Positions 20,231-26,743 of a DNA stretch of 64,000 nucleotides are shown piece by piece (position 1 is the first letter of the stretch; each line of letters begins with the position of its first letter). The notes below the pieces were generated by a model. That model searched no databases, was not told the origin of the DNA, and worked only from the letters and a program-made list of their open reading frames with translations. Made by a program: the position numbers and the translations under genes. This DNA comes from an uncultured Ruminococcus sp. (lineage in GTDB: Bacteria; Bacillota; Clostridia; Lachnospirales; Lachnospiraceae), in contig CAMMBV010000013.1 in assembly GCA_946494335.1 (NCBI GenBank), forward strand, positions 1 through 64,000, written 5' to 3'.

Positions 20231-20270
20231 GTTGCACAGATACTGTTATCTGCAGAAAAGAGGAATACAA

Positions 20271-20513
20271 ATGGACTACAAACGATTAAATGAACTGCGG
20301 CTGCTTGGCCTTACCATTGCCTATTACCGCAGAATCCGCGGCTTAACACAGATGGAACTGGCGGAGGCCGTAAATATCAGCCGCACTCACATCAGCAATA
20401 TAGAAGCTCCCAACAGCAGGACTTCTATTTCATTGAACAAACTTTTTGATATTGCAGAAGCACTGGACGTTCCTGTAAAAGATCTTTTTGATTTTCAGGA
20501 TACTCTTTTATAG
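20271..20513 (+). CDS. XRE-family HTH regulator (paralog A)
   Basis: MDYKRLNELRLLGLTIAYYRRIRGLTQMELAEAVNISRTHISNIEAPNSRTSISLNKLFDIAEALDVPVKDLF. Confidence 0.92.
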   Translation: MDYKRLNELRLLGLTIAYYRRIRGLTQMELAEAVNISRTHISNIEAPNSRTSISLNKLFDIAEALDVPVKDLFDFQDTLL

Positions 20514-21302: not shown

Positions 21303-21465
21303 GTTCTTTCCTCCATTCTTTTTTCTCTATTTTACTCAAATTCTCCTTACAGCACAAGAATGAAAAAAGCTTCTTTACTTTTCATTTTTCGTATTTTTCT
21401 TTTCTTTTGTTTTTCTTTACTTTGCATATACTAACATAAAATTTGTTTTCTTTTTCTTTTAAACA

Positions 21466-21480
21466 TCTAAACTATAAGTA
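21466..21480 (+). promoter_or_regulatory. Conserved promoter/operator motif TCTAAACTATAAGTA (copy 2)
   Basis: Exact 15-bp match to 20216..20230. Confidence 0.6.
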
Positions 21481-21505
21481 TCACGTACAGAAAAGGGGAA
21501 CATAT

Positions 21506-21748
21506 ATGAATTATAAACGCATGAACGATCTTCGCCTTCTTGGCCTTACAATCGCCTATTACCGCAGAGCCCGCGGACTGACACAGATGGATCTGGCCGA
21601 GATGGTCCACATCAGCCGCACCCACATGAGCAACATTGAAGCTCCCAACAGCAAAACTTCCATTTCACTCAATAAGCTGTTTGACATCGCCGAGGCTCTG
21701 GAAGTTCCTATGAAAGATCTGTTTGATTTTCAAAACAAACCGCTCTGA
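21506..21748 (+). CDS. XRE-family HTH regulator (paralog B)
   Basis: MNYKRMNDLRLLGLTIAYYRRARGLTQMDLAEMVHISRTHMSNIEAPNSKTSISLNKLFDIAEALEVPMKDLF, near-identical to paralog A. Confidence 0.92.
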   Translation: MNYKRMNDLRLLGLTIAYYRRARGLTQMDLAEMVHISRTHMSNIEAPNSKTSISLNKLFDIAEALEVPMKDLFDFQNKPL

Positions 21749-21818: not shown

Positions 21819-22246
21819 ATGAAAAAATGGCTGGCAGCCGGAGTTATGGTATTGGTTCTGGCAGGCACACTGTTTCTGCCAGGCTGCGCCAGGAAAGACT
21901 CCGCAGTCAAAATCACACTGAACGAGGTGGCGCATTCCATATTTTACGCGCCTCAGTACGTTGCCATAGAAGAAGGTTACTTCGCCGAGGAGGGTCTGGA
22001 TCTGGAGCTGGTCAACGGTTACGGCGCCGACAAAACCATGACGGCGGTTCTTTCCGGAGAAGCCGATATCGGATTCATGGGAGCAGAGGCATCTGTTTAC
22101 GCCTACCTGGAAGGAGCCGAGGATCCAGTGATCAATTTTGCCCAGCTGACACAGCGGGCGGGAAATTTTCTTGTATCTCGGGAACCGATGGAGGATTTTC
22201 AGTGGGAAGATCTGAAAGGCCAAGAAATCCTTGGAGGCCGAAAGGG
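21819..22246 (+). pseudogene. 5' portion of NMT1/THI5-like ABC transporter substrate-binding lipoprotein gene, interrupted by a serine-recombinase element
   Basis: Lipobox LPGC, NEVAHSIFYAPQYVAIEEGYFAEEGLDLELVNGYGADKTMTAVLSGEADIGFMG...GQEILGGRKG; continues in frame at 26170. Confidence 0.9.
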
Positions 22247-22270
22247 TGTTGTACATATATTAATGTAAAT
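22247..22270 (+). repeat. Left terminal inverted repeat of element (attL element-side arm)
   Basis: TGTTGTACATATATTAATGTAAAT; pairs with 26144..26167 at the same 24-nt register (15/24 identities, outer TGTT and inner TAATGTAAAT perfect). Confidence 0.8.
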
Positions 22271-22378
22271 TTAGAGAGCATTGTGATTTTGTGTAACTGG
22301 GTGGATGGAATGAATAGTGCGAAGAATACATAAAAAGAAATGGCGGAAATACCAGCAATGATATTTCCGCCGAAACGA

Positions 22379-22615
22379 TTAAGCCACATGTGGATAATCA
22401 ATAACTGCAATTTCCTGCATTAATTTTTTTGCCATATCAACAATCACTTCGAGGCGTTCAGCAACTTCATCTGTATAATATTTTTCTCCACACTGATCAC
22501 ATTCCAGACATGGAACATTTTTAATTACAATAATACAATTCTTGTAATTTACAACGTGGGTTGTTGTGCTATTGACAGTTGTGCTATTTTTACAATACAT
22601 ACACATATTCATCAC
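22379..22615 (-). CDS. YgiT-type zinc-finger protein (putative antitoxin)
   Basis: Two CxxC pairs (CMYC, CLECDQCGEKYYTDEVAERLE) typical of the YgiT/MqsA-type zinc finger; ATGA overlap with upstream DUF4258 ORF. Confidence 0.85.
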   Translation of the reverse strand: MMNMCMYCKNSTTVNSTTTHVVNYKNCIIVIKNVPCLECDQCGEKYYTDEVAERLEVIVDMAKKLMQEIAVIDYPHVA

Positions 22616-22923
22616 CTCTTTCTTCGAGTCTTTAAATCAGCTTCAAATTTCTTTGCATCCGGGTAATATGCCGTTATGATATATATATTTATGTTATCAC
22701 ACCCGACAACAATATGCAAAATTCGTCCGTTTACATCATAGCCAAAAATCAAGCAGCTTGGATTAGGATAATCTTCCGGGTAATCTTCTATCATTTCACC
22801 GGTTGCAATTCCGTTTTTTACATCGGCACGACTGATATCTCTTTCCTGCATTCGCTGCAGACAATGCTGTGTCCAAAGAATTTTTGATTCTGAACACAAT
22901 TTCTGATATATTTCTAAATTCAT
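22612..22923 (-). CDS. DUF4258-type protein (putative toxin of DUF4258/YgiT pair)
   Basis: WTQHCLQRMQERDISRADVKNGIATGEMIEDYPEDYPNPSCLIFGYDVNGRILHIVVG. Confidence 0.82.
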   Translation of the reverse strand: MNLEIYQKLCSESKILWTQHCLQRMQERDISRADVKNGIATGEMIEDYPEDYPNPSCLIFGYDVNGRILHIVVGCDNINIYIITAYYPDAKKFEADLKTRRKR

Positions 22924-23130
22924 CTGCTCCCTCCTTAACTTTGGTACACTCTGTAAATATTATACGCCAATTTTATTATCAATAACACATAAGAGTCGAG
23001 ACATCTGCCAAATAATCTCAATTCTTTGTCTCAAAGAGATGGGGAGCCCCGGAACAATCCGCAGCACACGGGAATGGGATTCCACCTATAAAATCCGAGT
23101 GAATGTAGAAAAAGCCATAAACCATTTCTT

Positions 23131-23405
23131 TGTAGCCTTCAGCCGTAACACCAAGGACAACATAGGCAGCATGGCTTAGTATTCTTCCATCCTCCCGGAC
23201 TTTATAATGGATACAATCCATAAAAACAAATGGATAAACAGGATTCAGCGGCCGGGACTGCCATTCCCTGACTTCAGGAAGGATCTTATCTGTGATCTTA
23301 CTGACCATCTCTGCAGACAGTTCAATCCCATAAAGATCCTGGAGCTGGTCATGGATATCCTTTGTGCTCATCCCACGGGCATAAAGAGAAATGACCTTTC
23401 CCTTT
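23131..23405 (-). pseudogene. IS256-family (mutator-type) transposase internal fragment
   Basis: Minus-strand KVISLYARGMSTKDIHDQLQDLYGIELSAEMVSKITDKILPEVREWQSRPLNPVYPFVFMDCIHYKVREDGRILSHAAYVVLGVTAEGYKE; both ends missing. Confidence 0.85.
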
Positions 23406-23540
23406 CAATGGGTGAATTGCCAGTTCTCTTAAACGATAAGAAACATAATCGGCTTCTGCGTCATCTAATAGTTTTTGCTCTTTGATTCCCAACTTATTGA
23501 TAAGTACAGGACAGTCATCATAAAGATATATATCACGCAT
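23400..23540 (-). pseudogene. Truncated Fic/DOC-family protein N-terminus
   Basis: MRDIYLYDDCPVLINKLGIKEQKLLDDAEADYVSYRLRELAIHPLKG resembles Fic N-termini; the reading then enters the IS256 fragment out of frame; no HPFxxGNG motif. Confidence 0.7.
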
Positions 23541-23709
23541 TGGAAGCATCCTTTACTTTATATTTTTTGTCCAGGAAAACTTTTAAATCATCCATAGTTG
23601 CCGTACCGTTTTTTTCTTTTTCAATATATTCTTTAAATTCCGGTGTTGGTTCCAGACCATCCACCTTAATTAAACCAATTGCATAATCCCAAGCTTCTGT
23701 CTTTGTCAT
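23533..23709 (-). CDS. Antitoxin VbhA-like small protein preceding the Fic remnant
   Basis: MTKTEAWDYAIGLIKVDGLEPTPEFKEYIEKEKNGTATMDDLKVFLDKKYKV; stop overlaps fic start region. Confidence 0.65.
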   Translation of the reverse strand: MTKTEAWDYAIGLIKVDGLEPTPEFKEYIEKEKNGTATMDDLKVFLDKKYKVKDASNA

Positions 23710-23944
23710 GATTACGTCTCCTTGCTTTGATAATATAATTATATCGTAATTAAATTGCCTTGCGAACAATTATTTAAAAATATGAATTTAGCGAATTCGG
23801 TTTCCCCCTTAACCATATTTTAGTCCCGACATATATCAGAGTCAATCTTAATAAATGCAGATATGCACCAGAACAATCTGTTTTTCATAGGATAACAAAA
23901 AGGGCTATAGTTGCTGTTCCTCAGCAAAATCTATTATAAGGGAT

Positions 23945-24136
23945 GTGATGACCACGAATAAGCCAACTTACTATCTTTGGCGGAATACTTTTTCCACACA
24001 GGAAGATTTTGAGGCCGCAAAAGAACGCTTTATAAAAATTGGATTCCGGGTTGTCACATTGCTTGATGGACAGCAAAATCGGGATATTCATACTGCAATG
24101 AAAGCACTGATAAAAAATCACTGGGAAGATGAATGA
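23945..24136 (+). CDS. Small hypothetical protein of the element
   Basis: 63-aa ORF MTTNKPTYYLWRNTFSTQEDFEAAKERFIKIGFRVVTLLDGQQNRDIHTAMKALIKNHWEDE directly upstream of the recombinase. Confidence 0.6.
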   Translation: MMTTNKPTYYLWRNTFSTQEDFEAAKERFIKIGFRVVTLLDGQQNRDIHTAMKALIKNHWEDE

Positions 24137-24243
24137 CTGTACAAGATACAACGACCATCTGATATAACTTTCTGTTTGCAGATGATTGTTTTTGATATGT
24201 CATATAATCATATTATTCCTATGTATTTAGAAAGGATTCGCAT

Positions 24244-26193
24244 ATGAATGCAGGATATGTACGCCTTTCCAGAGATGATGACAAAAAAAATTATATATCC
24301 ATTGAGCATCAGAAACTGATTATCAATCAATATGCTACGGAGCAGGGTGTTGTAATTGACCGATGGTATGAGGATGATGGTGTATCTGGCTATATTTTTG
24401 ACCGTCCAGGGTTTCAGCAGCTTATGGCGGATTTAGAGAAGGATATTGATACCGTATATGTCAAAGATTTTTCCAGACTTGGCAGGCATAATGCTAAGGT
24501 ACTCTTGCTTTTGGATGAATTTCAGGAACGCGGCAAGCACTTGATCGTCATTGATGATAATTATGATTCTATGGATTCCAGTGACGATACCATCGGGATT
24601 AAGACCTGGTTCAATGAGCGTTATGTAAAGGATACCAGCAAAAAGATTAAACGTGCCATCGAAGCCAGACAAAAAGAGGGTACTTTGATGACGCAGCCTC
24701 CCTTTGGCTATCGCAGAAACGAAAAGGATAAAACGATTTTAGAAATCGTTCCGAAGGAAGCAGAAAACATTAAACTGGTTTATGAACTTTATATCTCCGG
24801 TTCTGGTTATCGAAAAATTGCAAACTACCTTACTGATCAGAGAATTCCTACTCCATCTATGGTTCGCCACGAACGCGAGTTGAAAGAAGGACGTATGACC
24901 CAAAGGAGCATTGCAGCAAAATGGACGGACAGCATGGTGAAGGATCTTCTGGATAATGATTTTTATACAGGTACGTTTCGGCTGAAAAAACGCGCAAGGA
25001 ATACGGTGCATGGCAAGGACAAGCGTGTCCCGAAAGAAGAACAATACATTTTCAGGAACCATCATCCGGCAATCATTGACAAAGCAGCCTTTTCTCTGGT
25101 ACAGGAATTAAAGAAGAAACGCAGCCGGACAAATTATCGTGGAAGTCATAGACAGTGGTTAGGTTCAGAAATTCCAAATCCGTTTGGAAGCTGTCTCTTT
25201 TGCAAGGACTGCGGCAGCCGCCTGACACCGATTAGGCGAAAGACTTCAAGCGGGGAGCGAAAATATTATATTTGCACCATTTATAATACCAAAGGAAAAA
25301 GCTACTGTTCCAAGGCTCACCTAATTGAAGAAGAGGATCTGTTGGAGGATGTTTTAACCTATATCAAGATGTGTCGGAGTGCGCTATGTGAAGTAATTGT
25401 CACCTATGACTTAAAGGATTTTGAAGCAGAAAAGAAATCTATAGAAAAAAAGCGCCAGGAACTTCATACAGCAATCAGTGAACGCAAAAATCAATTGAAA
25501 GTGCTTCTAACGCAGAAAGTAAAAGATCTGGTAGTTACTGCCGGGAATGAGAAACTGATTAATGAAACTTACGACTCCCTGCAAAAGGATTTGCTGGGCC
25601 AGATTCATGGTCTGGAAATGCAGTTTAAGGAACTGGATGAAACAGCTATTAAAACACCGGATGTAAAGCATAAGCTAAAAAATGCTCTGGATGTGGTAGA
25701 TAAGATCATCGCAAGGGGAACTCTTGACCGAAGAGATATTGAACTTCTGATCGATCGAATTGACGTAGACGAAAACGGGATGCCGGAAATCACTTTAAAA
25801 CACGGGTTGTCCGACCTGATTGCATACAACCCGGCCGAAGAGATGAACCATCGGGAAAATACAATAATCGCTGTTGTGATGAAGCTAACCTCAGAGGATG
25901 AACGCGGTTATACCTCTGCAAAATACTTGTCCGAGCATATGACAGAACTGGGATTTAAAAAGACAAAGCAAAGTATCCTTCCTTACATCAGACTTATGAA
26001 GGAACTTGGGATTCTGGAGGATACCGATAATCCACTGAAGCCTTATCAGATTCTGAAATCCAAAGAAGGAATCACAGCTCTGATCAAAAAATATCTTCCG
26101 AATCTGCCGAAAGAATATACTGCAAAACAGATATCAGAACAATATTTACATTATAGCAGTGTTAACAGGCGGTATGCCTCAGATGGTTTTTGA
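24244..26193 (+). CDS. Large serine recombinase (resolvase N-domain, recombinase domain, zinc ribbon); last 7 codons and stop are host-derived
   Basis: YVRLSRDD...SIEHQKLIINQYA; VKDFSRLGRHNAKVLLLLDE; PFGYRRNEKDKTILEIVPKEAENIKLVYELYISGSGYRKIANYL; zinc ribbon CKDCGSRLTP...KYYICTIYNTKGKSYCSKAHLIEEE. Confidence 0.95.
   Translation: MNAGYVRLSRDDDKKNYISIEHQKLIINQYATEQGVVIDRWYEDDGVSGYIFDRPGFQQLMADLEKDIDTVYVKDFSRLGRHNAKVLLLLDEFQERGKHLIVIDDNYDSMDSSDDTIGIKTWFNERYVKDTSKKIKRAIEARQKEGTLMTQPPFGYRRNEKDKTILEIVPKEAENIKLVYELYISGSGYRKIANYLTDQRIPTPSMVRHERELKEGRMTQRSIAAKWTDSMVKDLLDNDFYTGTFRLKKRARNTVHGKDKRVPKEEQYIFRNHHPAIIDKAAFSLVQELKKKRSRTNYRGSHRQWLGSEIPNPFGSCLFCKDCGSRLTPIRRKTSSGERKYYICTIYNTKGKSYCSKAHLIEEEDLLEDVLTYIKMCRSALCEVIVTYDLKDFEAEKKSIEKKRQELHTAISERKNQLKVLLTQKVKDLVVTAGNEKLINETYDSLQKDLLGQIHGLEMQFKELDETAIKTPDVKHKLKNALDVVDKIIARGTLDRRDIELLIDRIDVDENGMPEITLKHGLSDLIAYNPAEEMNHRENTIIAVVMKLTSEDERGYTSAKYLSEHMTELGFKKTKQSILPYIRLMKELGILEDTDNPLKPYQILKSKEGITALIKKYLPNLPKEYTAKQISEQYLHYSSVNRRYASDGF
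26144..26167 (-). repeat. Right terminal inverted repeat of element
   Basis: Reverse complement TGTTAACACTGCTATAATGTAAAT, same register as left arm. Confidence 0.8.
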
Positions 26194-26743
26194 GTACATT
26201 TTAAAACAAAACGGTCTGGATCCTGCCGAGGATATGAGTATCGATCAGAGTATTGATTTCGGCTCCACGGCAGCTGCGTTTTCGGGAGGTCTTGGAGATT
26301 TCACCGTTGAGTTTGAGCCCAGCGCAACCATGCTGGAACAGCAGGGAGACGGTTATGTAGTGGCTTCTCTGGGTGTGGATTCCGGCTATGTCCCCTACAC
26401 AGCATACAGCGCAAAATCCAGCTACCTGAAAGAAAATCCGGAAGTGATACAAAAATTCACCAATGCGCTGCAAAAAGGCATGGATTATGTCAACTCACAT
26501 ACTCCGGAAGAGATTGCTGCGGTTATCGCACCTCAGTTTGAAGAGAACGATCTGGATACCATCACCGCCATCGTGACCCGTTATCATGAGCAGGACACCT
26601 GGAAAGAGGATCTGATTTTCCAGCAGGAGAGCTTCGACCTTCTGCAGGATATCCTGGACGAAGCCGGCGAGCTTTCATCCAGAGTCGCATATGAAGATCT
26701 GATCAACACAGAATTCGCCGAGGAAGCTATTCAGGATAAATAA
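26170..26743 (+). pseudogene. 3' portion of the interrupted NMT1/THI5-like substrate-binding protein gene
   Basis: (G)GMPQMVFEYILKQNGLDPAEDMSIDQSIDFGSTAAAFSGGLGDFTVEFEPSATMLE...; in frame with 21819..22246 when joined (1002 nt = 333 aa + stop). Confidence 0.9.

Follow-up and report, generated by a model that had tools for sequence, protein, structure and literature searches.

Placement of attP within the 3′ end of a large serine recombinase gene predicts different C-termini for the integrated and circular states of a Lachnospiraceae element

A 3.9-kb insertion carries attP within the 3′ end of its large serine recombinase (LSR) gene, a position that is predicted to give two state-specific isoforms of the enzyme, one of them with a tail under selection. 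The insertion occupies positions 22245–26169 of the window (the whole stretch of 64,000 nucleotides that was analysed). In its integrated form the recombinase is a protein of 649 aa encoded at 24244–26193 of the plus strand, with its final 7 aa and stop codon derived from the host. The frame runs open over attR (...gtt aac agg / cgg tat gcc tca gat ggt ttt TGA), and the predicted ending, ...VNR/RYASDGF with a 7-aa tail and a stop at 26191–26193, is exact to the base. When 26169 is joined to 22247, as in the circle, the same frame continues as ...VNR/CCTYINVNLESIVILCNWVDGMNSAKNT, 28 residues that end at the claimed stop at 22331–22333. The original prediction that the C-terminus depends on integration state holds as regards encoding, which differs between the two states and does so widely among relatives, and it is strengthened by the strong purifying selection that acts on the tail.

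The insertion interrupts the gene of an NMT1/THI5-like substrate-binding protein at a 2-bp GG core. The N-terminal half of this host gene (ABC transporter substrate-binding protein; left attachment half B) lies at 21819–22246 and matches Pfam NMT1 (8e-14); the C-terminal half, at 26168–26743, matches NMT1_2 (5e-7), and both are on the plus strand. Rejoining of the halves at GG restores ...GGRK-GG-MPQMVFEY.... An uninterrupted copy of 339–342 codons, which reads AAA GGC GGA ATG CC at the junction, is present in three genomes of this genus. Two closely alike XRE-type HTH genes lie about 1.2 kb apart at 20232–20513 and 21443–21748, the second directly upstream of the interrupted gene.

Because attL (cgaaag-GG-tgttgtacat) and attR (gttaaca-GG-cggtatgcc) have only GG in common at the junction, the shared core is GG, located on the plus strand at 22245–22246 in attL, a position identical in all related left ends, and at 26168–26169 in attR. 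A 2-bp core is what an LSR should use. The reconstituted attP forms an imperfect inverted repeat, ATTTACAT-N-ACA-GG-TGT-N-ATGTAAAT, whose left half is inside the recombinase gene. The P arm (TTTACAT...AACA), at 26145–26167, is within the recombinase coding sequence, and its inverted repeat, the P′ arm TGTTGTACATATATTAATGTAAA, occupies 22247–22270, both on the plus strand. The GG core with its ATTTACAT/ATGTAAAT arms recurs as an LSR-type attP in about 40 elements.

The recombinase has the features of the LSR class, a Resolvase domain (PF00239), a Recombinase domain (PF07508), a zinc ribbon (Zn_ribbon_recom, PF13408) and a coiled coil, the last formed in the AlphaFold model by helices at 363–466. 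It matches the PHROG 95 integrase at 1e-97, and its fold matches the integrases of SPbeta, Bxb1 and phiC31 (9dxd, 9iu2, 9rah). The model also places a winged-helix domain near the C-terminus, at residues about 530–603 (25831–26053, plus strand), which aligns to the PadR-like regulator 4esf with a TMt of 0.64 and an rmsd of 2.4. Upstream of the recombinase, at 23945–24136 on the plus strand, is a 63-aa ORF with a GTG start. It is found in nearly every related element for which upstream sequence is available and is kept down to recombinases of 42% identity. Its predicted fold is beta-alpha-beta-alpha, with no family match in Pfam, NCBIfam or PHROG and no significant match among solved structures. 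Recombination directionality factors are usually of this size, and the ORF is a candidate for such a factor. The cargo is on the minus strand and consists of a toxin–antitoxin-like pair of YgiT-type zinc-finger and DUF4258 proteins (22379–22923), which the L014 element also carries at its left end, and a broken transposase remnant of the IS256/Mutator family (23018–23549; Pfam Transposase_mut, 1.5e-23).

The case for the tailed isoform is carried by codon-level conservation of DNA that can be read in the recombinase frame only after circularization. The tail and its TAA stop occupy 22247–22333 of the plus strand and come into frame once 26169 joins 22247. When the ends are joined at the core, the recombinase frame runs on for 24–34 residues in 23 distinct left ends, which share the motif NVN[L/Y]E[S/T]IVI[L/I]CNW[V/I]DG[M/L]; the encoded peptides include NVNLESIVILCNWVDEMNSAK in Frisingicoccus and ...VDGMNSAK in Faecalimonas, genera with the cultured carriers Frisingicoccus caecimuris DSM 28559 and Faecalimonas umbilicata DSM 103426. 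Over codons 9–22 after the core, that is, past the attP arm, a codon model fitted to the 23 sequences gives an omega of 0.133 (kappa 3.2, lnL −333.77), 24 log-likelihood units better than omega fixed at 1 with the best kappa tried (lnL −357.75). Nine diverged representatives give an omega of 0.09 (lnL −231.0 versus −250.1). Constraint dips in the linker that precedes the core (omega 0.30) and returns in the tail (0.13), compared with 0.08 in the winged helix. The other two frames of the tail DNA contain stops in 23/23 and 21/23 of the sequences.

Several other accounts of this conservation were considered. Since the tail lacks its own start codon and the host reading frame that enters through attL is closed by the TAA of ATGTAA, selection sees the tail sequence only when it is joined to the recombinase in the circle; the absence of a conserved in-frame start likewise rules out a separate small ORF. 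Conservation as attP DNA is ruled out as well, since relatives that lack the tail retain both att arms, and changes in the tail are mostly synonymous. The length of the open frame was dropped as evidence, because several unrelated left ends are also open for 33–46 codons; the codon-level conservation is what exceeds chance. A terminator-like hairpin at 22342–22371 gives no support either, as it is on the minus strand, facing the left end, where it would serve the minus-strand pair, and such a hairpin is not above chance for the whole region. Selection on the protein sequence of the tail, in a frame that is readable only in the circle, leads to the conclusion that the tailed, circular isoform is very probably produced and matters to the element.

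The tail of the integrated form has a different character. In the window the residues RYASDGF and the stop are host DNA (26170–26193, plus strand), the TGA arising where the recombinase frame, shifted by one base, crosses the host's TTT GAG (Phe-Glu). At related attR junctions, too, the recombinase frame is offset by one base from that of the host gene. The resulting tail has 3 residues where the host Pro-Glu is CCT-GAR, 7 where the Phe is TTT, and 14–48 where the Phe is TTC. Since two synonymous host codons, those for Pro and Phe, set its length, the element has no control over this tail, which is simply short and arbitrary; its shortness alone, and not its sequence, can matter. Two relatives, L088 and L089, cross attR in frame with the host gene, which fuses the recombinase to the entire C-terminal half of the target protein, in ORFs of 822 aa (L088, 1–4821) and 829 aa (L089, 1–4812). 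LSRs that are annotated from integrated copies, in databases or in screens for new tools, may thus be recorded with a wrong, host-derived C-terminus and without the true tail.

A scan of 85,462 genomes yielded 41 related loci, nearly all in Lachnospiraceae. Nearly all relatives for which the right end is available are inserted in the identical codon pair of the same host gene. Left halves were located in the same genomes as the recombinases, mostly as the sole copy; in several metagenome-assembled genomes the two ends come from separate contigs, and their pairing relies on their presence in one genome. The original prediction called for a survey of whether homologues keep the frame open across attP, and the frame is indeed open over attR in nearly all relatives of at least 65% identity. 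It had named a stop before the core as evidence against the switch. Such a stop occurs in several relatives, mostly distant ones (L046, L048, L086, L090, L092, L093 and the C-terminally truncated L074).

On the recombinase tree the tail is distributed over a main clade of 65–100% identity and one deep branch (L047, 54%). Three relatives (L034, L043, L091) are open at attR and have unrelated sequence at the left end, and two (L040 and L042) are decayed. In L038/L096 (L096, 1169–1493) an insertion of about 230 bp interrupts the tail and separates VILCN from CNWVDGMNSAKS. The main clade also includes losses: L012 and L028 stop at the core, L026 retains the remnant NVNFETMY, and L027 has unrelated sequence, while in all four the recombinase frame is still open. 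Because these four manage without a proper tail, the tail is not indispensable, and together with the stops before the core in distant relatives they make it a clade-level trait that is not obligatory. The pattern is that of a tail that is old and usually retained, yet can be lost.

Recombinases up to 98% identical are found in hosts whose target genes share only 60–77% identity, with no correlation between the two values (r about 0), from which these small elements of gut bacteria appear to move between genera. Element length ranges from about 3.4 kb upward, and the cargo varies, with DUF4258/YgiT, Abi_2, Mob_Pre (in L011), and RepA_N and IstB/DnaC-like genes (RepA_N/IstB in L020); no mobilisation gene is seen in the element of the window. 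An integrative and mobilisable element would combine its own integrase with a relaxase or oriT and have no conjugation genes. Exact attP and tail patterns found no natural joined circle in viral contigs. Likewise, there was no joined C-terminus in INPHARED phages or PLSDB plasmids, and no joined circular sequence in 397 genomes of the family or in the seven unpaired genomes. The joined ORF is therefore a reconstruction from its two ends.

A mechanism that would make use of the two endings can be outlined. The circle would encode the full recombinase, comprising catalytic domain, recombinase domain, zinc ribbon, coiled coil, winged helix and a tail of about 28 residues. Integration between two GG cores would remove the tail and add a short, arbitrary host ending, and excision would restore the tail. 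LSRs integrate unaided and require a directionality factor for excision, and their direction is controlled from the C-terminal half, through the zinc ribbon and coiled coil. Fusion of a recombination directionality factor (RDF) to the C-terminus of an LSR has been engineered to switch direction and is sufficient to reverse it (PMC5737554); the C-terminus is thus a workable control point. A tail that exists only on the circle-encoded enzyme would be well placed to favour integration.

The tail may well be a segment that docks and tunes the circular-state LSR, as opposed to a C-terminal degron. The effect would most likely be to favour attP x attB integration over attL x attR recombination. Alternatively, the tail might restrain the enzyme until attB is met, and then be removed by the success of the reaction. 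Loss of the tail would leave the integrated enzyme quiet, or make it rely on a directionality factor such as the 63-aa ORF may encode. It is tentatively suggested that integration state might in this way be encoded in the recombinase itself, the circle-only tail perhaps acting as an intrinsic directionality module, so that integration would switch the enzyme off or hand it over to the 63-aa partner.

In the main rival reading, the tail would govern the amount of recombinase and not its direction, with a degron-like terminus limiting the enzyme in the circle and integration stabilising it, or the reverse. Phages of the BPs type achieve integration-dependent stabilisation with ssrA-like tags (PMC9262239), and the tail does carry a hydrophobic stretch, IVILCNW. 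This stretch is internal and fixed, however, whereas the extreme C-terminus, which tags of the ClpXP type need, varies: the termini include KNT, TTF, KNI, AAV, KLK, AYQ and NVI among others, and -AAV is confined to one lineage. The variable last residues disfavour an ssrA-like tag, and control of amount is an unlikely function for the tail. A role at the circular stage that has nothing to do with recombination direction is likewise less likely, whether the tail were to touch a relaxase or the replication machinery, help the winged helix to autoregulate the recombinase promoter, or assist folding. The Mob_Pre, RepA_N and IstB/DnaC-like genes of relatives and the PadR-like winged helix of the recombinase would suit such a role, but the tail stays constant across elements whose cargo differs widely, and it is also present in elements that, like the one in the window, have no visible mobilisation gene. 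That attP lies in the 3′ end of the gene for compactness, and neither tail matters, would agree with an integrated tail tolerated at 3–48 aa, with the loss of the tail, or an earlier stop, in some relatives, and with the chance open frames of 30-odd codons in unrelated left ends, but it is strongly disfavoured by the codon test (omega 0.09–0.13 in the circle tail, next to a less constrained linker) and is very improbable.

One-way integration by serine recombinases is a central question for the field and for genome engineering, to which a separate directionality factor has been the answer so far. In this family the recombination event itself is predicted to rewrite the C-terminus of the enzyme, a C-terminus under strong selection. 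The family offers a ready test of the C-terminus as a direction switch and indicates that att sites can serve to make state-specific protein isoforms.

The domain order, fold and 2-bp core of the SPbeta (SprA/YokA), Bxb1 and phiC31 systems are those of the recombinase in the window. Alignment with these integrases excludes the C-terminal part of the protein, however, where the window enzyme adds a winged helix and the state-dependent tail. The integrase–RDF fusions likewise have a C-terminal LSR segment that sets directionality, but they are artificial and promote excision, whereas the segment described here is natural and belongs to the circular state. Use of a single target gene by the members of a family fits the site-specific LSRs described by Durrant et al. 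(PMC10083194), whose relevant passages do not discuss an att site within the recombinase gene.

An att site inside a gene has precedents elsewhere. In the integration-dependent immunity of the mycobacteriophages BPs and Brujita, attP lies in the repressor gene, integration swaps the C-terminus of the repressor, and the host supplies the stop codon (PMC9262239). The integrase of these phages is of the tyrosine type, and it is the repressor that is altered, losing an ssrA-like tag; in the window element attP is in the recombinase gene, the recombinase itself is changed, and its termini carry no such tag. The “suicidal” archaeal integrases of the SSV1 and pNOB8 types have att inside the integrase gene, which integration partitions (PMC8371274). 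There a tyrosine integrase is split and may be inactive, whereas here only the residues after 642, the last 28 of the circular form, are exchanged, and all catalytic and DNA-binding domains remain undivided.

A C-terminus swapped through an att site in the gene of a serine recombinase was absent from the literature searched, which covered few subscription journals. The integrase of the Myxococcus phage Mx8 is a tyrosine recombinase, and the original work on its switch is reportedly that of Tojo (1996) and Magrini (1999). In Mx8, and in Mx9, attP lies inside int, whose 3′ end is replaced on integration; the integrase so changed stays active with a different specificity, and a switch has been proposed (PMC6070905). 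The window element shares with Mx8 an attP inside the integrase ORF and a 3′ end that changes upon integration. Mx8 is a phage, however, whereas the window element uses an LSR and targets a protein-coding gene. Since its enzyme is a serine recombinase, the element would work like the Mx8 switch without being a member of that kind. As read from genome sequences, the family represents a serine-recombinase counterpart of a known kind of arrangement, that of Mx8, and the arrangement is real and conserved.
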